23,342 nt of DNA from a virus, in the IMG/VR virus record IMGVR_UViG_3300037585_004453, positions 1 through 23,342 of that record; one strand, written 5' to 3'. Below, one piece after another: positions 3,177 through 19,236 of this stretch. The translations under genes and the position numbers were made by a program. Position 1 is the stretch's first letter, and each line of letters opens with the position of its first letter. The notes beneath the pieces are model-generated. The model searched no databases, was not told where the DNA came from, and saw only the letters and a list, made by a program, of their open reading frames with translations.

Positions 3177-3467
3177 ATGAAAAAGTTATGGAAAGTACTA
3201 GCAGCTATAGGAGCTATTGTTGTTGGTATATTAGCAGTATCGTCAAAAGGTGATAAGAAACAATTCAAGAAAGATTTGAATAAAAATAAAAAGAAAATTG
3301 ACGATGTCAAGAAAAAATCATCTGCAGTAGAATCAAAAAAGAAAGAAACTAAGAAGAATATATCTAAGACAAAATCAAAAATAAAAAAGACTGCTTCTAA
3401 GAAAAAATCAACAACCTCAGCAAAAAATAAAGCCAAAAGCTTTAAGAAAAAATACGGAAAAAAATAA
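3177..3467 (+). CDS. Lysine-rich single-pass membrane protein, possible inner-membrane lysis protein
   Basis: 96 residues. An N-terminal hydrophobic helix (about residues 5-22, LWKVLAAIGAIVVGILAV) is followed by a tail made almost entirely of Lys, Ser, Thr, Asn and Ala, with no aromatic residues until the end (KKKYGKK). The SD is AAAGGAAAAGAG before ATG, 2 nt after the previous stop. Its stop overlaps the next gene's start by one base (TAATG), so the two are probably translationally coupled. A short N-terminal anchor with a long hydrophilic tail is the layout of an inner-membrane spanin. It also fits a small membrane effector or a DNA-binding, membrane-tethered peptide. Function is not assigned. 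Confidence 0.65.
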   Translation: MKKLWKVLAAIGAIVVGILAVSSKGDKKQFKKDLNKNKKKIDDVKKKSSAVESKKKETKKNISKTKSKIKKTASKKKSTTSAKNKAKSFKKKYGKK

Positions 3468-3847
3468 TGAAGAATATCTTAATTATAATGTTGAGTATGT
3501 TTTCTCTAAATCTATTTTCACAAGATACAGTAAGCATACCACAATCAGAGATAGATGAAATTATAGCTGTCATGGATACGTTGATGGAACAAGATTCAAT
3601 AAACAATATCCTTATAGAACAACAGCAATTACAGATACATAATTTCGAAACATTGATGAAGCAAGATAGTATGTTGCTAATGTACAAAACGCAGGAAATA
3701 TGTTTATTGAATGATCAAATTGATCTTTATAATAAGAGATTGAATCAAGTCGATAAGTGGTATAACAAAAGATGGGTTGGAACGATATTGGGAGTAGTCG
3801 GCACAGCAGCCATTATCCATGTGATCGACTATTCTTTGCCACGATAA
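3467..3847 (+). CDS. Secreted coiled-coil protein with C-terminal membrane segment, candidate spanin-like
   Basis: 126 residues. The N-terminal signal-like segment MKNILIIMLSMFSLNLFSQ would plausibly be cut before QDT; the LFSQ style is common in Bacteroidota exported proteins. A central helical region rich in Gln, Leu, Ile and Asp follows (about residues 22-98, likely coiled coil), then KWYNKRW and a second hydrophobic stretch (about 104-118, VGTILGVVGTAAIIHV). It has no lipobox. It starts inside the stop of the lysine-rich membrane protein. The pair, lying just before terL, resembles a two-gene envelope-disruption cassette in layout. That is inference only; no endolysin or holin is seen in the window. 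Confidence 0.65.
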   Translation: MKNILIIMLSMFSLNLFSQDTVSIPQSEIDEIIAVMDTLMEQDSINNILIEQQQLQIHNFETLMKQDSMLLMYKTQEICLLNDQIDLYNKRLNQVDKWYNKRWVGTILGVVGTAAIIHVIDYSLPR

Positions 3848-3886: not shown

Positions 3887-5470
3887 ATGGCCAAACAAAA
3901 TCTCAAAAGTATAATATCATCTGAATACACTAAGTGTGCAAAGGATCCAGTATATTTCATGAAGAAATATTGTATGATCCAACATCCCACACGTGGAAAG
4001 ATACACTTTAATCTATACCAATTTCAAGAAAGAGCTCTGGACGAGTTTGCAAATAACGATTACAACATCATATTGAAATCTAGACAGTTAGGAATATCCA
4101 CCTTATCAGCTGGATATTCATTGTGGTCGATGATATTTAATCAAGACTTCAATGTGTTAGTAATTGCAACCAAACAAGAGGTGGCTAAAAATCTAGTTAC
4201 TAAAGTAAGAGTAATGCACGAATATTTACCTAGCTGGTTAAAAGGTAATACTATAGAGGATAATAAGTTAAGTCTCCGTTTTGCAAACGGATCTCAAATC
4301 AAAGCAGTATCAGCTGCAGGAGATGCAGGTAGATCGGAAGCATTATCATTACTCGTAATGGATGAAGCAGCTTTTATTGATAAGATTGGAGAGATATGGG
4401 CTTCTGCACAACAAACATTAGCAACTGGTGGTAAGTGTATTATATTATCAACACCAAATGGAACTGGAAATTTTTTCCACAAAACATGGGTGAAGGCTGA
4501 AGCAGATGAAAATAAATTCAATACTATAAGATTACATTGGACAGTACATCCAGAACGAAATCAAGATTGGAGAGATGAGCAGGATTCACTATTAGGTCCT
4601 AAAATGGCATCTCAAGAATGTGATTGTGATTTTATATCATCTGGTCATACCGTAGTAGAAGGAAATCTACTTCAATGGTTCAAAGAAACGTATCAATTGG
4701 ATCCACAAGAACGTAGAGGGATTGGTGGTGATTATTGGATCTGGGAATATCCAGATTATTCAAAGAATTATATGGTCGTTGCCGACGTCGCGAGAGGAGA
4801 TTCATCAGATTACTCTACATTTCATGTGATGGAGGTAGAGACTGTTTCCCAAGTAGCAGAGTTTAAGGGACAGCTATCGACTAAGGAATTTGGAAATATG
4901 TTAGTCAACGTTGCAACAGAATGGAACAATGCATTGTTAGTTGTAGAGAATGCAAACGTAGGTTGGGCAGCTATTCAAGTAGCTATTGATAGAGAATACA
5001 AGAATTTATACTATACATATAGAAACGATGGTGTTACTGACTTCGAGGTAGCTATGGATAAGGGATATGATCTAAAAAATAAGTCCCAAATGGTTCCAGG
5101 TTTCACAACATCAGCAAGAACTAGACCACTTTTGATATCGAAACTAGATATTTATTTCAGAGAAAAGGAATGTGTTGTCCGTTCTAAACGGTTGATAGAC
5201 GAGTTGTTTGTCTTCATTTGGAATGGTTCAAAAGCGGAGGCGCAACAAGGGTATAACGATGATTTGGTGATGGCATTTGCTATTGGTTTATACGTACGTG
5301 ATACAGCACTCAAGTTAAGACAACATGGTTTGGATCTAAATAGAGCAGCTCTTTCGTCGTTGGGCAACTCTAAAACTAAAAGTGTATACACATCAAACGA
5401 CAATTACGTTCCAGGACAGTGGGACACAAATATGGGAGATCATACTGAAGATCTCACTTGGTTATTATAG
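3887..5470 (+). CDS. terL: Terminase large subunit (T4 gp17 homologue)
   Basis: 527 residues. ATPase-nuclease motor that packages DNA through the portal and cuts concatemers. The ATPase domain (about 1-250) has a deviant Walker A, LKSRQLGIST at 63-72, in which the usual GK Lys is Ile70 and Lys64 stands at the front, as in lambda-type terminases. Walker B is LLVMDE with Asp159-Glu160, and the coupling motif is STPNGTG at 188-194. The C-terminal RNase H-like nuclease domain has Asp300 (VVADVARG), Glu354 (VVENANVG) and Asp459 (YNDDLVMA) as candidate metal ligands. Length is below the 610 residues of T4 gp17. There is no SD in front of the ATG, unlike portal immediately downstream, so initiation may be leaderless. 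Portal follows after 12 nt, a packaging-motor operon. Confidence 0.96.
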   Translation: MAKQNLKSIISSEYTKCAKDPVYFMKKYCMIQHPTRGKIHFNLYQFQERALDEFANNDYNIILKSRQLGISTLSAGYSLWSMIFNQDFNVLVIATKQEVAKNLVTKVRVMHEYLPSWLKGNTIEDNKLSLRFANGSQIKAVSAAGDAGRSEALSLLVMDEAAFIDKIGEIWASAQQTLATGGKCIILSTPNGTGNFFHKTWVKAEADENKFNTIRLHWTVHPERNQDWRDEQDSLLGPKMASQECDCDFISSGHTVVEGNLLQWFKETYQLDPQERRGIGGDYWIWEYPDYSKNYMVVADVARGDSSDYSTFHVMEVETVSQVAEFKGQLSTKEFGNMLVNVATEWNNALLVVENANVGWAAIQVAIDREYKNLYYTYRNDGVTDFEVAMDKGYDLKNKSQMVPGFTTSARTRPLLISKLDIYFREKECVVRSKRLIDELFVFIWNGSKAEAQQGYNDDLVMAFAIGLYVRDTALKLRQHGLDLNRAALSSLGNSKTKSVYTSNDNYVPGQWDTNMGDHTEDLTWLL

Positions 5471-5482
5471 GAGAAAAATAAA

Positions 5483-7351
5483 ATGGCGGATACTACGTTT
5501 TTCGGAAGGTTAAAAACATTATTCAATACTGGAACAATAATGCGTCGAGGATTAGACGGACGAGTTCGAGTAACGGATACAAATAAACTGCAATCGGTTG
5601 GAAATTTAGCAACTAATAAGATTGTAGATAGATATTCAAGATTGTTCGGATCTCAAACACAACAATCATCATTTGGTACAGCAGCAAACTTCCAATCGAT
5701 GAGACTACAATTATTTACAGACTATGAATCTATGGATGAGGATTCAATCATATCATCAGCTTTAGATATATATGCAGATGAATCTTCATTAAAGAATGAA
5801 TATCATGATGTTTTGAATATCGAATGTGAAAATGATGAAGTTCAAAAGGTATTACATAATTTATTCTATGATGTTCTCAATATAGAATTTAATCTCTGGC
5901 CGTGGATTCGTAACATGGTAAAATATGGTGATTTCTTTTTGAAATTAGACATAACAGAGAAGTTTGGAGTCACAAACGTCTCACCAGTTTCATCATATGA
6001 ATTATTCAGAGAAGAAGGATTCGATCCAAACGATCCTGAAGGAGTACGTTTTGTGCATGAAACCTTAATGGGAACTAACATGAGCTCATCCGGACAAAAT
6101 AAAACCCATTACGAGAATTATGAAATAGCTCACTTCAGACTATTGTCAGATACAAACTTTTTACCTTATGGTAAATCGATGATTGAAGCAGCTAGAAAGG
6201 TTTGGAAACAGTTAACTCTTATGGAAGACGCAATGTTAATCCATAGAGTAATGAGAGCTCCAGAAAGAAGAATATTCAAAATTGATATAGGTAATATACC
6301 ACCAAATGAAGTAGAAAACCACATGAACCAAGTTGTCAATAAGATGAAGAAGGTTCCATTTGTTGATAGACAAACAGGACAATATAATCTTAAATTCAAC
6401 ATGGAAAATATGTTAGAAGATTACTATCTTCCAATAAGAGGTGGACAATCAGGAACAGAAATAGACACATTATCTGGAATGGAATTCACTGGAATTGAAG
6501 ATATAGAGTATTTAAGGAATAGAATGCTAGCAGCACTTAAAATTCCGAAAGCATTCTTAGGATATGATGAGAATATCGAAGGAAAAGCAACTCTAGCAGC
6601 AGAGGATGTTCGATTTGCAAGAACGATAGAAAGAATTCAAAAGATTGTTGTATCAGAATTAACAAAAATTGCAATCGTTCACTTATATTCACAAGGATTT
6701 GATGATGAAAAATTAGTTGATTTTGAATTAACATTGACAAATCCATCAATGATATACGAACAAGAAAAGATTTCTCTTTGGAACGAAAAAGTAAGCCTTG
6801 CAGCATCGATAAAGTCAGATAAGATACTATCATCTGATTGGATATATGAAAATATTTGGGGAATGAGTAAAGAGGAGATAGAATCCCAGAATGAAGGATT
6901 AGCTAAGGATGCAAAGGAAACTCACAGGTTGACTCAACTAGAGGATGAAGGTAATGATCCACAAGTAACGCAAGAATCTTTTATAAATGGAGAGCCAAGA
7001 TATAAATCAGCTTTTGATTTGAGTGAATTAGAAGAAGACGAGCATGAAGAAGGAGCTTTAGGTAGACCAAAAGAAAGAACTAAATACAATACAGATAAGC
7101 ATGTACGAGATAGAGATCCAATTGGTAAAAAAGCTCGTGGAAAAGGAAGGGATGCTGATAGAACTGTAAAACATAAATATAAAAACGGAAGTGCACTAGC
7201 GCGAGAAGCTAAATTATCAACGGCAAAATCTATAAAAAATCGAATGCCAGCTGGTAAAACTAAAAATATAATAAAAGAAACGTTTAGCATTAAGCAGGAC
7301 CAAGTTGAACCTAGGTTATTGGACGAACGAAACTTAATAGACTTGGACTAA
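5483..7351 (+). CDS. gp20: Portal vertex protein (T4 gp20 homologue)
   Basis: 622 residues against 524 in T4. Forms the dodecameric ring at the capsid vertex, nucleates prohead assembly and docks terminase. The conserved body covers about residues 40-490, including SMDEDSIISSALDIYADES, the stem region around MEDAMLIHRVMRAPERRIFKID, and MLAALKIPKAFLGYDE with a following acidic helix. After about residue 500 there is a charged extension of roughly 120 residues, first acidic (LSELEEDEHEE) then strongly basic (GKKARGKGRDADRTVKHKYK). It begins with a strong SD (TAGGAGAAAAATAAAATG), 12 nt after terL. The tail may contact DNA or scaffold; this is inferred from charge alone. Confidence 0.95.
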   Translation: MADTTFFGRLKTLFNTGTIMRRGLDGRVRVTDTNKLQSVGNLATNKIVDRYSRLFGSQTQQSSFGTAANFQSMRLQLFTDYESMDEDSIISSALDIYADESSLKNEYHDVLNIECENDEVQKVLHNLFYDVLNIEFNLWPWIRNMVKYGDFFLKLDITEKFGVTNVSPVSSYELFREEGFDPNDPEGVRFVHETLMGTNMSSSGQNKTHYENYEIAHFRLLSDTNFLPYGKSMIEAARKVWKQLTLMEDAMLIHRVMRAPERRIFKIDIGNIPPNEVENHMNQVVNKMKKVPFVDRQTGQYNLKFNMENMLEDYYLPIRGGQSGTEIDTLSGMEFTGIEDIEYLRNRMLAALKIPKAFLGYDENIEGKATLAAEDVRFARTIERIQKIVVSELTKIAIVHLYSQGFDDEKLVDFELTLTNPSMIYEQEKISLWNEKVSLAASIKSDKILSSDWIYENIWGMSKEEIESQNEGLAKDAKETHRLTQLEDEGNDPQVTQESFINGEPRYKSAFDLSELEEDEHEEGALGRPKERTKYNTDKHVRDRDPIGKKARGKGRDADRTVKHKYKNGSALAREAKLSTAKSIKNRMPAGKTKNIIKETFSIKQDQVEPRLLDERNLIDLD

Positions 7352-9117: not shown

Positions 9118-9729
9118 ATGGCAAAAGAACTTTTAATAGATTATACAACATTCCAAATAACACCTCAGATGATTAAAGAATCTGAAGAAGCTAACGGAGG
9201 ACGTGTTATTGTACAAGGAGTGTTGCAAAGATCTGGAGCAAAAAATCAAAACGGAAGAGTTTATCCAAAAGATATTTTAGCTCGTGAAGTGGAAAATTAT
9301 AAAAAGGTTCAAATAGCTGAGAGAAGAGCTCTTGGAGAATTAGATCATCCAGAATCATCTGTAGTAAATTTACAAAATGTTTCACACAACGTACAAGATG
9401 TATGGTGGAAAGGAGATGATGTAGTAGGAAAAGTAGAGATTCTAGGAACACCGTCAGGAAATATACTAAAAGAATTACTAAAAGCAGGTATTAAATTAGG
9501 AATATCTAGTAGAGGGTTAGGATCAGTTAAATCAATAGGTGAAAACACGGTAGCGGTAGAAGATGATTTTGAATTGATATGTTGGGACTTTGTTTCAAAT
9601 CCTTCAACGCATGGAGCTTTTATGGCACCAGTAAATGAAGGTGTAAATAACCAAGCAAGTGAATGGGACGTATGTGATAAGTATTGCAAAACGAATTCAA
9701 TCATTCGTGATATATTAGGAGATCTATAA
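9118..9729 (+). CDS. gp21: Prohead core protease (T4 gp21 homologue)
   Basis: 203 residues against 212 in T4. Serine protease of the herpesvirus-assemblin-like fold that cleaves scaffold and capsid proteins after (I/L)xE during head maturation. The family signature NQNGRVYPKDIL is at 43-54. The catalytic His is expected at 77 (GELDHPESS) and the nucleophile Ser at 130 or 131 (LGISSRGLGSV). The strand with VGKVEILGTPSG lies between them, and the final conserved block is FELICWDFVSNPSTHGA. It has a strong SD (AAGGAGACGACAA) and a promoter-like octamer 43 nt upstream. Placed as in T4 between portal and scaffold, with extra small genes on both sides. Confidence 0.93.
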   Translation: MAKELLIDYTTFQITPQMIKESEEANGGRVIVQGVLQRSGAKNQNGRVYPKDILAREVENYKKVQIAERRALGELDHPESSVVNLQNVSHNVQDVWWKGDDVVGKVEILGTPSGNILKELLKAGIKLGISSRGLGSVKSIGENTVAVEDDFELICWDFVSNPSTHGAFMAPVNEGVNNQASEWDVCDKYCKTNSIIRDILGDL

Positions 9730-11147: not shown

Positions 11148-11179
11148 TTGCAAAATCAAAAAATATTTCTTATATTTAG

Positions 11180-11187
11180 TATAAATA
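11180..11187 (+). promoter_or_regulatory. TATAAATA, canonical T4-like late box before the bS21 gene
   Basis: This is the only exact TATAAATA I found on the + strand. It lies 24 nt before the bS21 ATG. It overlaps AATAAATTTATT (11184-11195), a perfect palindrome, so the element could also act leftward. The surrounding 65 bases are extremely AT-rich and carry no SD. Confidence 0.4.
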
Positions 11188-11211
11188 AATTTATTAACAA
11201 AAATTGTACGT

Positions 11212-11565
11212 ATGCAAAAAGACAAAGGCAGTAGCCAAGATGGAAGGAGAGATAGTGGTCCTCCTCACAAAAATTTCAAAAAAGGATTTCGTAGACCAAG
11301 ACGTGGTAAACACGAATACTTCATACCAGGAGCACTTGGTATAAAGGTATTGGATGGTAATATTGAGCTAGCACTCAAAAAACTCAAAAAAGAGATGAAG
11401 GAAGCTGGAGTAATATCGGAGTATAGAGAACGTAGGTATTACACTAAAAAATCTCAAGTAAAGAGAGTTAAGATGGAAGAAGCTCAACGTTGGCAAAAGA
11501 AGCTTGATAGAGATAGAGCTAGATATGACAGGAATACAGTCTGGGATTTCAGAAAAATCCGATAA
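11212..11565 (+). CDS. rpsU: Ribosomal protein bS21 homologue with N-terminal extension
   Basis: 117 residues. Residues about 43-100 match bS21: KVLDGNIELALKKLKKEM, then KEAGVISEYRERRYY and KKSQVKRVKMEEAQR. This is the first helix, the AGV/L turn, the RRxxY block and the basic second helix of the family, which in E. coli is 71 residues. An added N-terminus of about 42 residues is basic and Arg/Gly/Pro-rich (KKGFRRPRRGKHEYFIPG), and about 17 extra residues follow the core. bS21 binds the 30S platform next to the anti-Shine-Dalgarno end of 16S rRNA. Phage-encoded bS21 is known from aquatic phages. No SD precedes the ATG (only AT-rich sequence), unlike most neighbouring genes. A terminator follows 17 nt after the stop. 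It probably replaces host bS21 on ribosomes; that effect is inferred. Confidence 0.87.
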   Translation: MQKDKGSSQDGRRDSGPPHKNFKKGFRRPRRGKHEYFIPGALGIKVLDGNIELALKKLKKEMKEAGVISEYRERRYYTKKSQVKRVKMEEAQRWQKKLDRDRARYDRNTVWDFRKIR

Positions 11566-11582: not shown

Positions 11583-11612
11583 AAAAAGAGTAGAGAAATC
11601 TACTCTTTTTTT
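11583..11612 (+). terminator. Rho-independent terminator after bS21
   Basis: Stem AGAGTAGA (11587-11594) and TCTACTCT (11599-11606) with a GAAA tetraloop, extended by A-T pairs and followed by a run of T. It closes the protease-to-bS21 group and separates it from the scaffold gene. Confidence 0.88.
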
Positions 11613-11728: not shown

Positions 11729-11760
11729 TTTCCAATTAAACATAATATAGGAGAAAAGTA

Positions 11761-12897
11761 ATGGACAAATTACTAAAAGAAGCAATCGCTGATGCTAAAG
11801 CTGTTAGAGAAACTGCTATAGCAAACGCAAAACTAGCTCTTGAAGAAGCGTTTACGCCAAAACTTCAATCTATGTTATCTGCAAAAATCCGTGAAGAAGA
11901 AGAAGAGGAAGTTGAAGATGTACCGGTTGAAGAACCAGTAGCTGAACCAGCTTTAGATTCTGAAGAAGAAGGGACTTACGAAGGAGAAGAAATGGAAATG
12001 TCTACTGGTGATGAAGAAGGCCACGAAGATGAAGAAATGGAAACTGCTGAAGAAGAAGAAATGGAAGCTCCAGCAATGGACGCAGCTGAAGAAGAAGGTG
12101 AAGAAATGGCACCGGAAATGGATGCGGCTGAAGAAGAAGAAGCTCCTGCAGACGATATGGAACTTGAAGCAATCATTAGAGAACTTGAAGATGAAATGGG
12201 AACTGAAGAAGAAATGGAAGATGAAGAACCAGTAGCAGAACAATCTGATTCATCAGGTGTTGGTAACGGCGACAATAAAGTTGTTGTAGCTGACGGCGAT
12301 GATGAAGAAAAAGCAGAGACTGAAACTTCACCTGGAAACACCATGGGATCTGAAGACGAAAACATGGACAAGATTTCTGAGAATGCAGAAGAAGGCGAAG
12401 AAGAACCAGTTGATCTAGAAGAAATCATCAAATCATTATCAGAAGACCAGTATACTGCTGGTGTAGATGACGGTGAAGCAGGTGAATCAGTAGAACAACC
12501 TGAGTCTCCAGTGGCAGAAGAAACTAAAAAACTGAAAGAAGCGTATGCTACTATCAGATTTATGAAAGATAAACTTTCTGAAGTTAATTTGCTAAACGCT
12601 AAACTATTATTTACAAACAAATTGTTTAGAAATAATGGTCTTGACGAAGGTCAAAAACTAAGAGTGATCGAAACTTTTGATAGAGCGGGATCAGTTAGAG
12701 AAGTAAAATTAGTTTACTCTACATTAGCTGAATCGCTTAAATACGATGCAAAAGCGACGAAGAAAGTTAAAAAAATTACAGAAGGTTTAGCATCAAAACC
12801 TTCAAAATCAACAAAACCTGCTGCTAAAGCAACACCTCTTAACGAAGGTAATGTAATGGCTGATAGGTTTAAGAAACTAGCTGGATTGATAAAATAA
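11761..12897 (+). CDS. gp22: Prohead core scaffolding protein (T4 gp22 homologue)
   Basis: 378 residues against 269 in T4. Forms the internal core around which the capsid assembles and is then degraded by the prohead protease. The N-terminal helix MDKLLKEAIADAKAVRETAI continues to about 45. A very acidic, low-complexity Glu/Ala/Met region (about 46-160) follows, then a mixed acidic linker. The conserved C-terminal part (about 255-325) includes VNLLNAKLLFTNKLFRNNGL and FDRAGSVREVKLVYSTLAES, and the end is MADRFKKLAGLIK, a motif shared with other T4-like core proteins. SD is AATATAGGAGAAAAGTA. The acidic repeat is nearly pure GAA/GAAGAA codons, which explains the large antisense and frame-shifted open frames there. 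Immediately precedes the capsid gene, as in T4. Confidence 0.88.
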   Translation: MDKLLKEAIADAKAVRETAIANAKLALEEAFTPKLQSMLSAKIREEEEEEVEDVPVEEPVAEPALDSEEEGTYEGEEMEMSTGDEEGHEDEEMETAEEEEMEAPAMDAAEEEGEEMAPEMDAAEEEEAPADDMELEAIIRELEDEMGTEEEMEDEEPVAEQSDSSGVGNGDNKVVVADGDDEEKAETETSPGNTMGSEDENMDKISENAEEGEEEPVDLEEIIKSLSEDQYTAGVDDGEAGESVEQPESPVAEETKKLKEAYATIRFMKDKLSEVNLLNAKLLFTNKLFRNNGLDEGQKLRVIETFDRAGSVREVKLVYSTLAESLKYDAKATKKVKKITEGLASKPSKSTKPAAKATPLNEGNVMADRFKKLAGLIK

Positions 12898-12930
12898 TAT
12901 CAACAGCTATAATTTATTAGGAGATAATAT

Positions 12931-14670
12931 ATGAACGTTTCAGGACTAATACAAGATGCTGGTAATACATACAACAAGCAACTTGACAAGACTCGTGCAT
13001 TAGTAGGAAAATGGGATAAGACCGGATTATTAGAAGGTATTGACCATGATTATGACAAGCACGGAATGGCCGTTCTTCTAGAAAACCAAGCTCGTCAATT
13101 GATTGATGAAGCTTCAACTGGTGGCAGAGGCACAGGCGCTTCTGGTTACGAGGAATGGTCGGGCGTTGCTCTTCCATTGGTAAGAAGAATTTTTGCCGAA
13201 ATCGCTGCAAAAGATTTTGTTAGCGTACAACCAATGAACTTACCATCAGGTCTAGTTTTCTGGTTAGATTTCAAATATGGTGGTTCAGTAGCTGGAGGAG
13301 CATTAAATGGTGCCTTCACTTTGAACGACACAACACAAACTCAAGCGGGTACTTTACATGGTACTACTGACGCTGCTGGTGATCCAACTGGTGGTTTATA
13401 TGGTGCAGGCTCGTACGGTTTTTCTATTAACAATATAGCAATTGATGACTTAGGTACAGTAGATGATCAATGTGCAACTGCAGCTGTAACTACAGCTCCA
13501 CAGTTATTCTCAGGATCTTCTGCTTTAGCTACTGACGCAGTATTTAACTGGGATTCAGATTTCTCTGCATCTTATCAATCTACACAAGGTGCAACAGGAA
13601 CTGGTGATGATACTATTAAGGTAATTAGAGTATTAGCATCTGATATCACTGATATGGACAAGGAAGGTATAAGAGCATTTGTTCTTAAATCTAACGGTAC
13701 TGGTGAAATCGCTGCTACTTTCCCTCAATTTACTAAATTAGTTGCTGCTGACGGTTCAGCTGGAACAACTCACGTACAGTTTGTTGTATCTGGTTCTATA
13801 ACTGGTGGTGAAACTGACTTAGGTATTGAATACCACAAAGCTCCAACTGATGTTAACAGAGGTGACTTTGAGCAAGATCAAGCAGGAACTCATGCAAATG
13901 CTGAAACTGACTTAGGTATTCCAGAAATTGATGTACAATTAAGAAGTGAAGCAATCGTTGCTAAGACTAGAAAGCTGAAAGCTGTATGGACTCCTGAGTT
14001 CGCACAAGACTTAAACGCTTACCACTCTATCGACGCTGAAGCTGAATTAACTTCTATGTTATCTGAGTACGTTTCTATGGAAATTGACTTAGAAATCTTA
14101 GACATGTTATTCAGAAATGCTTTAACTAAAGACTACTGGTCAGCTAAAATTGGTGAAACTTATGATGCTGGAACTTCAACATTCTCAGCAGCTGCTGCAG
14201 GACCTGAAGCTTATAATCAAGGTACTTGGTTCCAAACTTTAGGTACTAAGATCCAAAAAGTTTCTAATACTATTCACCAAAAAACTATGCGTGGTGGTGC
14301 AAACTTCTTAGTTTGTTCTCCAAAAGTTGCAACTATTCTAGAATCAATTCCAGGATATGCTGCTGATACTGATGGAAACAAATCTGACTTTGCAATGGGT
14401 GTTCAAAAAGTTGGTGCTCTTAATTCAAGATACCAAGTTTACAAAAACCCTTACATGTTAGAAAACCAAATCTTAATGGGCTTTAGAGGTGGACAATTCT
14501 TGGAAACAGGTGCTGTTTATGCTCCATATGTTCCATTGATTATGACTCCTCTAGTTTACGATCCGAAAAACTTCACTCCAAGAAAAGGTGTGATGACGCG
14601 TTATGCGAAAAAGATCGTTAGACCAGAATTCTATGGTGTTGTACAGATTAAAGGTTTAGACGCTATTTAA
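12931..14670 (+). CDS. gp23: Major capsid protein (T4 gp23 homologue)
   Basis: 579 residues against 521 in T4, HK97-type fold. The conserved N-terminal block is PLVRRIFAEIAAKDFVSVQP at about 83-102. It is preceded by QARQLIDE, where cleavage after Glu60 would fit the (I/L)xE specificity of the prohead protease and release a 60-residue propeptide. Later conserved regions include KTRKLKAVWTPEFAQDLNAY, the SMEIDLEILDMLFRNA segment, and the end block YAPYVPLIMTPLVYDPKNF with GVMTRYAKKIVRPEFYG. The middle (about 120-310) is Gly/Thr/Ala-rich and longer than in T4, likely an insertion exposed on the surface. SD is TTAGGAGATAATAT. A strong terminator follows 30 nt after the stop. Confidence 0.97.
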   Translation: MNVSGLIQDAGNTYNKQLDKTRALVGKWDKTGLLEGIDHDYDKHGMAVLLENQARQLIDEASTGGRGTGASGYEEWSGVALPLVRRIFAEIAAKDFVSVQPMNLPSGLVFWLDFKYGGSVAGGALNGAFTLNDTTQTQAGTLHGTTDAAGDPTGGLYGAGSYGFSINNIAIDDLGTVDDQCATAAVTTAPQLFSGSSALATDAVFNWDSDFSASYQSTQGATGTGDDTIKVIRVLASDITDMDKEGIRAFVLKSNGTGEIAATFPQFTKLVAADGSAGTTHVQFVVSGSITGGETDLGIEYHKAPTDVNRGDFEQDQAGTHANAETDLGIPEIDVQLRSEAIVAKTRKLKAVWTPEFAQDLNAYHSIDAEAELTSMLSEYVSMEIDLEILDMLFRNALTKDYWSAKIGETYDAGTSTFSAAAAGPEAYNQGTWFQTLGTKIQKVSNTIHQKTMRGGANFLVCSPKVATILESIPGYAADTDGNKSDFAMGVQKVGALNSRYQVYKNPYMLENQILMGFRGGQFLETGAVYAPYVPLIMTPLVYDPKNFTPRKGVMTRYAKKIVRPEFYGVVQIKGLDAI

Positions 14671-14812: not shown

Positions 14813-15490
14813 ATGGCAAAGTACAAATTCGCAAACGATCGTCCAAAAAACAACAAAAAAGGTTACAGATTCTTACTATCACTTAACGAAGAACAAAAAA
14901 AAGCAAAAGGAGAGATTTACCACAACACAATTTCAACAATTATCGGAAAAGCAGGTTCTGGAAAAACATTACTAGCGTGTCAAATTGCACTACATCAATT
15001 ACTTGAAAAACACATAACAAAAATAATAATAACAAGACCAACAGTGTCTAAAGAAGATATGGGACATCTACCTGGAAACATTAAAGAAAAGATGGATCCA
15101 TGGGTAGCTCCGATATATTCAAACATGTATCAGTTATTAAGAAAGGAAAGAATTGATAAAATGATTCAAGATGGGCAAATAGAAATAGTGCCGGTATCGT
15201 ATATGAGAGGTAGAACATTCTTAAACAGTTGTGTTATTGTTGATGAATGTCAGAATCTAGATAACCAACAAACCTTCATGATTGTGCAAAGAATCGGTAA
15301 AGGAAGTAGAATGATGTTCTGTGGAGATAGTGATCAGGTGGATTTGAAGCGACAGATGGATAGTGGATTAGCATTCTTGTCAAAAATTACAAATGTAGAA
15401 GGATTACATACGATTAAACTGTTAGAAAATCATAGACACCCAATACTAGATAATTTGATTCCAAAATATACTGAAAAGGGTATATCATAG
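14813..15490 (+). CDS. phoH: PhoH-like ATPase
   Basis: 225 residues, starting MAKYKFANDRP. This ATG is chosen over the in-frame ATG at 14681 because the longer frame runs through the capsid terminator, and only 14813 has an SD (TAGGAGAGTTCAC). Single P-loop domain: Walker A GKAGSGKT at 45-52, ITRPTVSKEDMGHLPGN at 73-89, Walker B VIVDEC with Asp144-Glu145, then MFCGDSDQVDL and a terminal ENHRHPILDNLIPKY. PhoH-family proteins are frequent auxiliary genes in marine phages. They are often linked to phosphate stress, though their biochemical role (RNA-related ATPase/helicase activity) is uncertain. It forms its own small transcription unit between capsid and neck genes. Confidence 0.93.
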   Translation: MAKYKFANDRPKNNKKGYRFLLSLNEEQKKAKGEIYHNTISTIIGKAGSGKTLLACQIALHQLLEKHITKIIITRPTVSKEDMGHLPGNIKEKMDPWVAPIYSNMYQLLRKERIDKMIQDGQIEIVPVSYMRGRTFLNSCVIVDECQNLDNQQTFMIVQRIGKGSRMMFCGDSDQVDLKRQMDSGLAFLSKITNVEGLHTIKLLENHRHPILDNLIPKYTEKGIS

Positions 15491-19035: not shown

Positions 19036-19236
19036 ATGGCTGATGTAGCAGCAATTGAATTCGATAAAATACAACAAGAAAGCCAAGATACTTTGAGGCT
19101 ATCAAACGATAAAACTAAAACCGTTCTTAAATTCAAAGGTGAAATGCCAGATTTTTTATCTGGTCTGCCACAGTACAATCATTCGGATATTTTATCATTG
19201 ATGAATACCGCAGAATGGACAACAAATCCTGAATAA
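19036..19236 (+). CDS. Small unknown acidic protein between gp15 and sheath
   Basis: 66 residues from the second ATG (MADVAAIEFDKI), or 73 from the ATG at 19015 (MIYVIYN...). I prefer 19036 because many genes here begin MA and the first seven residues look like leader sequence, but neither ATG has a good SD. The protein is soluble, with EFDKIQQESQDTLRLSNDKT, then a hydrophobic/proline part (MPDFLSGLPQYN). No known domain. It lies in the tail operon and may be a chaperone or minor tail factor; function unknown. Confidence 0.6.
   Translation: MADVAAIEFDKIQQESQDTLRLSNDKTKTVLKFKGEMPDFLSGLPQYNHSDILSLMNTAEWTTNPE

Follow-up and report, generated by a model that had tools for sequence, protein, structure and literature searches.

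A bS21 gene in a T4-like virion block

The stretch of viral DNA analysed here, referred to as the window, is the IMG/VR record IMGVR_UViG_3300037585_004453 in its full length of 23,342 bases, and it contains a T4-like virion gene block. The gp20-type portal, gp21-type protease, gp23-type capsid and T4-type terminase that mark a T4-like myovirus are all present. TerL (3887..5470, + strand) is followed by the portal (start at 5483), the protease (start at 9118), an acidic protein at the scaffold position (11761-12897), the major capsid gene (MCP, 12931-14670) and PhoH (start at 14813), and the neck, sheath, tube and baseplate genes downstream of PhoH were assigned by position and partial matches. 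Two further proteins are encoded at 3177-3847, one lysine-rich and 96 aa long, the other 126 aa long and with a signal-like N-terminus.

The phage bS21 gene is located at 11212..11565 on the + strand, co-directional with the virion genes, and encodes 117 amino acids plus the stop. Its product matches PF01165 with an E-value of 2.1e-13 (50.2 bits as opposed to a curated cut-off of 27) and the PHROG ribosomal protein S21 with an E-value of 6e-9. The PF01165 match range comprises residues 44-93, the conserved bS21 core (11341..11490, +). This is preceded by a basic N-terminal arm of residues 1-41 (11212..11334, +), which contains an IPG motif (P39 G40) and is absent from Flavobacteriia bS21. A PDB search with this short protein returned proteobacterial bS21 proteins as the best matches (1.6e-7) and the bS21 of F. 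johnsoniae (7jil) with 6e-4, and a pattern-limited scan for cellular homologues found none. Directly after the gene lies a hairpin of 12 pairs (11583..11610, +), a possible terminator, with T following on both strands. Inside the bS21 frame, at 11242-11266, an SD-like GGAAGGAGAG stands ahead of the anti-SD-like CCTCCTC, with which it may form a hairpin.

The strength of a Shine-Dalgarno (SD) sequence was expressed as the predicted pairing energy (kcal/mol) of the leader with the 16S 3' tail, with -7 or better regarded as strong, which applies to 14 of the 26 scored starts of the window. The preliminary description had named nine starts with strong SDs, and all of them proved to be well placed, with energies of -8.2 (2292), -7.3 (5483), -8.2 (9118), -7.3 (11761), -7.3 (12931), -7.6 (14813), -8.7 (19669), -9.4 (22313) and -9.1 (22929). 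The SDs of the scaffold gene (11749..11753, +) and the major capsid gene (12919..12923, +) both read AGGAG. The description of an extended bS21 of 117 aa without an SD was likewise confirmed, as its leader (11180..11211, +) gives a hybrid energy of +0.8 kcal/mol with the 16S 3' tail, which means no pairing. bS21 is one of several SD-less genes of the window, alongside TerL (3887) and the gene starting at 19036; these are the three of the 26 starts with an energy above -1.

Upstream of bS21, a putative promoter of its own (11148..11178, +) consists of TTG, a spacer of 20 nt and TATATTTA, and is similar to the Bacteroidota promoter apart from one mismatch. Using motifs picked after sight of the leader sequences, TTG-N18-22-TATATT was found upstream of bS21 in 27 of 81 clusters of related phages as opposed to 20 of 363 other late genes with a gap, and TATTTATA upstream of 116 of these 363 genes (11.4 expected) as opposed to 20 of the 81 bS21 genes. 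Because the shares of the two motifs differ between bS21 and the other late genes, bS21 may have its own, host-like promoter, and TATTTATA is a candidate late promoter. Within the window, TATTTATA stands before many late genes (1576, 3873, 7382, 14752, 15492, 19612, 22287 and others), 12 times on the + strand.

Shine-Dalgarno use and bS21 types in related phages

Relatives were collected from IMG/VR with capsid queries, each query contributing its top 80 out of as many as about 600 matches, which makes the sample incomplete. With an iterated bS21 profile, which stopped growing, bS21 was found in 139 of 319 scanned sequences. A capsid gene and at least five genes were present in 249 loci. We counted 198 of these as informative, meaning that bS21 was seen or that at least 4.5 kb upstream of the capsid gene was present in the sequence, and dropped the remaining 51. 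The informative loci were grouped at 97% capsid identity into 146 clusters, 84 with and 62 without bS21, and a gene was called SD-led if an SD tetramer occurred at -17 to -4 from its start.

Clusters with bS21 upstream of the capsid gene have a median of 57% SD-led late-block genes and a median energy of -5.34, as opposed to 9% and -1.19 in clusters without it (Mann-Whitney U 39 of 5208, p 3e-24 treating clusters as independent). The GC content is equal in both groups (0.345 with and 0.342 without bS21). An SD tetramer precedes 595 of the 1099 same-strand genes of the bS21-bearing clusters compared with 10.6% after leader shuffling, the shuffled rate in bS21-less clusters being 2.8%, and a peak of tetramer positions at -13 to -9 is seen in the bS21 group only. 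Broken down by gene family, SDs were found before MCP in 72 of 80 clusters with bS21 and 5 of 58 without, before PhoH in 43/59 and 0/39, tube in 10/10 and 0/3, sheath in 8/12 and 0/3, protease in 34/66 and 3/62, portal in 8/48 and 0/55, and TerL in 1/38 and 2/45. The scaffold place (79/84 and 24/62) provides the weakest comparison, involving low-complexity proteins for which the bS21-less matches may be wrong. Judged by these family counts, which are high for MCP and tube and low for TerL and portal, the SDs belong to the genes of the most abundant virion proteins. As a host yardstick, 79 Flavobacteriia-type rpsU loci were used, in which the extended SD of the rpsU leader has a mean energy of -19.4, compared with +0.8 for the bS21 leader of the window, and the flanking host genes have SDs in 14 of 338 cases (-1.06). 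By their SD levels, the bS21-less phages resemble such host genes and the bS21 phages do not. A phage-borne bS18 partner was found in none of 23 long records. Two or three bS21 matches occur in six of 198 Bacteroidota-phylum genomes (G173, G195, G092, G143, G151 and G158).

Weak SD use despite the presence of bS21 was observed in L226, L131 (LR756508, 484 kb), L288 and L289. In three of these four phages, the typical arm features are missing or replaced by a variant. Of the 81 clusters whose bS21 leader could be scored, 78 have no SD there (mean energy 0.0; three further clusters were unscorable), and the three with an SD, Mel-JY01, L211 and L212, all belong to one clade.

A different type of phage bS21, compact and host-like, was found in L015 and yielded 80 further loci when used as a query. 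The 45 distinct compact proteins begin with MLIVKV or alike, their genes are mostly opposite in strand to their neighbours, and 69 of the 80 loci contain a gene homologous to a virion gene of the window. The median SD fraction of the 32 loci with at least six genes is 0, with 0.13 as the highest value in the table, and no SDs were found before TerL (0/38), portal (0/54), protease (0/59) or MCP (0/28; near-copies not removed). The assumption that any phage bS21 goes with SDs is ruled out by these phages, although their capsids are set apart in a distant clade of their own, so that the contrast is confounded by descent. The compact bS21 leaders are SD-free as well (0/45). The suggestion that the bS21 mRNA is translated independently of SDs therefore agrees with its SD-free leaders in the relatives, but SD-lessness is only partly special to bS21, since TerL is SD-poor in both groups, and together with the SD-poor portal and the compact bS21 this means that an SD-less bS21 leader alone is no proof of a switch.

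With regard to the protein, 48 residues precede the counterpart of F. johnsoniae residue 10 in the window and a median of 29 in the SD group. In host bS21 there are nine in 79 of 79 loci when the nearest ATG is taken as the start, and seven of these loci have additional ATGs upstream of it. By alignment column, 76 of 83 bS21 retain the arm glycine (G40 in the window, mostly within PG), and none of these 76 has a leader with an SD. The glycine is missing in Mel-JY01, L211 and L212, which have an SD before bS21, in the SD-poor L226 and L131, and in L043 and L218, which are SD-rich, so that the link between glycine and SDs, noticed after the fact, does not hold strictly; in L288 and L289, SD use is weak despite the glycine. 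In the AlphaFold model of the window bS21 (pTM 0.41), arm residues 1-30 have a pLDDT of about 51-54 and helices are predicted for residues 51-65, 67-73 and 80-109, which suggests that the arm is probably flexible. In place of F. johnsoniae Tyr54, the window encodes Arg93 (11488..11490, +), as indicated by the alignment and the PDB match to 7jil, with Trp94 next to it. Position 54 is occupied by Tyr in 38 of the 84 clusters, Phe in 7, Arg in 30 and other residues in 9, and is thus not aromatic in 39. The loss of Tyr54 was rejected as the switch, as the SD fraction is 0.55 in the 38 clusters with Tyr and 0.59 in the 30 with Arg. Because both types are alike in SD use, neither Tyr54 loss nor the C-terminal tail is tied to it, and as far as the sequence comparison goes, the feature common to the SD-using group is the N-terminal arm. 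Of the altered N-terminus and C-terminal tail initially put forward as the basis of the effect, only the former is retained.

A possible late translational switch and its alternatives

Bacteroidota ribosomes normally disregard the SD start signal because their anti-SD is hidden. The T4-like group of the window phage is related to Bacteroidota phages, and the window phage probably infects Bacteroidota. According to the available part of the F. johnsoniae study (PMC9976891), the anti-SD becomes free once bS21 contacts are lost, and ribosomes without bS21 or its C-terminal part favour SD-led mRNA. Such control of the anti-SD by bS21, together with an armed bS21, SDs on the virion genes and an SD-less bS21 gene, fits a late translational switch, and we propose that the arm-bearing bS21 is incorporated into host ribosomes, whose anti-SD thereby becomes usable for late mRNAs, a mechanism that we infer with a probability of about 0.5. 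Early in infection, host ribosomes would still hide the anti-SD, and initiation on the bS21 mRNA and on the early genes of the phage would take place without SDs. The phage bS21 would then take the place of host bS21 on the 30S subunits, where the arm and altered contacts could either keep the 16S tail from entering the pocket of the platform or hold the duplex of SD and anti-SD, and the exchanged ribosomes would prefer the SD-led late mRNAs of the phage over SD-less host mRNAs. As its gene has no SD, the phage bS21 would also escape the SD-based feedback of the host on bS21. The complete ordered sequence, in which SD-less early genes and bS21 are followed by SD-led virion genes in a phylum that hides the anti-SD, with the arm as the active element, has in our estimate slightly less than an even chance. 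The retention of Tyr54 in 38 of 84 clusters, and of Phe in 7, counts against the switch, as these residues should favour hiding of the anti-SD. The originally suggested pairing of SD-led late mRNAs with a special, SD-less phage bS21 is supported in the comparative tests, but does not extend to every phage bS21.

The alternative that survives best, although we consider it unlikely, is that the hosts of the arm-bearing phages use SDs anyway, whereas bS21-less and compact-bS21 phages infect SD-less Bacteroidia, in which case no switch is needed. The named capsid relatives are immuto (Flavobacterium), the Rhodothermus phage RM378, which is in line with this alternative, and Mel-JY01 (labelled Microcystis). 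In 50,697 phage records, three bS21 queries found no arm-bearing bS21 and thus no isolate of this group. The independent contrasts are few and the compact-bS21 capsids distant, and the non-late genes of the bS21 phages still have 20% SDs as opposed to 4% in bS21-less phages. However, an SD-using host predicts SD-led early genes as well, and within the genomes the SDs are unevenly distributed. Taking genes within 4 kb of late markers as late, SDs were found in 124 of 251 late and 218 of 1075 other genes when 11 long bS21-group records were pooled, with a higher late share in 11 of 11 records (Wilcoxon p 0.001). Nine of 12 records are significant alone, the twelfth (G006) having been left out of the pool because of too few other genes. 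Two of the 11 records, G002 and G001, the latter sharing the capsid of the window, break off next to the capsid gene without containing bS21 and were counted by kinship; without them, the counts are 109/230 and 187/992, with 9 of 9 records higher. The comparison of SD use across longer genomes thus favours the late genes throughout, but in G001, the virus of the window itself, the late excess is not significant (9/13 vs 12/25). In G033, only 8 of 122 genes in regions far from the markers are SD-led. In three bS21-less genomes, SDs precede 3 of 87 late and 15 of 394 other genes. The SD-free state of the bS21 gene itself also speaks against hosts that use SDs anyway, as do the Bacteroidota-type TTG-TAnnTTTG promoters in two bS21-bearing phages, Mel-JY01 (21 vs 0.72 expected) and G035 (7 vs 0.42 expected). 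Such promoters are near expectation in the other records, including G001 and the immuto-like G042. Since even G042 is at expectation, their absence says nothing about the host, and the promoter test was dropped as a general host marker, being uninformative in most records. Genes behind these promoters have an SD in 10 of 18 cases in Mel-JY01, against the picture of SD-less early genes, and in one of six in G035. Mel-JY01 (PP395634, L319-L322) is listed as a 'Microcystis phage', but its 21 Bacteroidota-type promoters and its capsid, akin to those of Flavobacterium phages, suggest that this host label may be wrong.

Less probable again is that bS21 and SD use are old lineage traits, kept or lost jointly for unrelated reasons, with bS21 being SD-less through its own short leader, as the SD-poor TerL and portal and the SD-less compact bS21 genes (0/45) could indicate. 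The bS21 state is strongly clustered on the capsid tree, where five changes are needed and four are forced. This leaves only 4-5 independent contrasts, with which a sign test cannot be significant, and the independent-pair tests are all non-significant. All four bS21-less clades are SD-poor, three of them below their bS21-bearing sisters: the Mel-JY01 group has -4.70 compared with -1.21 in its sister, L288/L289 have -2.71 compared with an SD-less sister clade, and the immuto clade is set against SD-rich neighbours, whereas L131 (-2.39) and its bS21-less sister (-2.47) show no difference. That three of four clades lost their SDs along with bS21, and that SDs concentrate within genomes on late, abundant proteins, argues against joint inheritance without a functional link. 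Equally improbable is the explanation that the phage removes or outcompetes host bS21, its own bS21 merely keeping the ribosomes working while the SDs take advantage of ribosomes without bS21, a state known from F. johnsoniae: the preference of ribosomes with absent or C-terminally truncated bS21 for SD-led mRNA in the available text (PMC9976891) and the presence of SDs with both Tyr54 and Arg54 types, by which the residue itself may not matter, are consistent with it, but compact-bS21 phages should gain equally and yet use no SDs.

Phage bS21 occurs commonly, and only proposals have so far been made about its use. The switch via the arm-bearing bS21 would make this proposal concrete, with a cis signal, the virion-gene SDs, that comes and goes with a trans factor, the arm-bearing bS21, and with the compact-bS21 phages as a contrast group. 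It would also offer a natural tool for asking why Bacteroidota gave up SD-based initiation and whether one exchangeable protein restores it.

Comparison with known systems

The bS21 of pelagiphage HTVC008M is likewise phage-borne and enters ribosomes, those of E. coli, but the host of this phage is alphaproteobacterial; according to the available part of the report, purified E. coli ribosomes carrying it are nearly inactive, so that its entry into ribosomes speaks for the proposed switch and their inactivity against it, and the term 'Shine-Dalgarno' is absent from that text (PMC6375957). Flavobacterium phage immuto (NC_055915), with a capsid protein 51.6% identical to that of the window, has the same order of TerL, portal, protease, MCP and PhoH, but unlike in the window no bS21 was found in its late block, and none of its late genes has an SD (0/21). 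The autoregulated rpsU of F. johnsoniae is similar to the proposed phage role in that bS21 controls the pairing between 16S tail and SD, as described in the accessible sections (PMC9976891). It differs in that host genes of this type carry the extended SD (mean -19.4, 79 loci) that the phage bS21 gene does not have.

The closest proposal is that of Chen et al. (2022), in whose available text phage bS21 was already suggested to favour late phage mRNA in Bacteroidetes (PMC9723584). A word search of this text found no SD survey of phage genes, and a literature search, judged by titles, found no report on SD use in Bacteroidetes phages. As in the window, TerL, portal, protease and MCP of a T4-like block lie beside bS21 in those phages, and their bS21 is proposed to replace host bS21, as suggested here for the window phage (PMC9723584, available part). 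In their features, rather than by a genome-by-genome match, the compact-bS21 phages resemble those of Chen et al. According to the same text, bS21 in the phages of Chen et al. is encoded opposite to the virion genes, whereas it is co-directional here, and position 54 is aromatic in all 61 of their phage bS21, whereas the window has Arg with a Trp one residue on (PMC9723584). The further traits by which the phage described here differs from those in the available account are the N-terminal arm and the SD-led late genes (PMC9723584).
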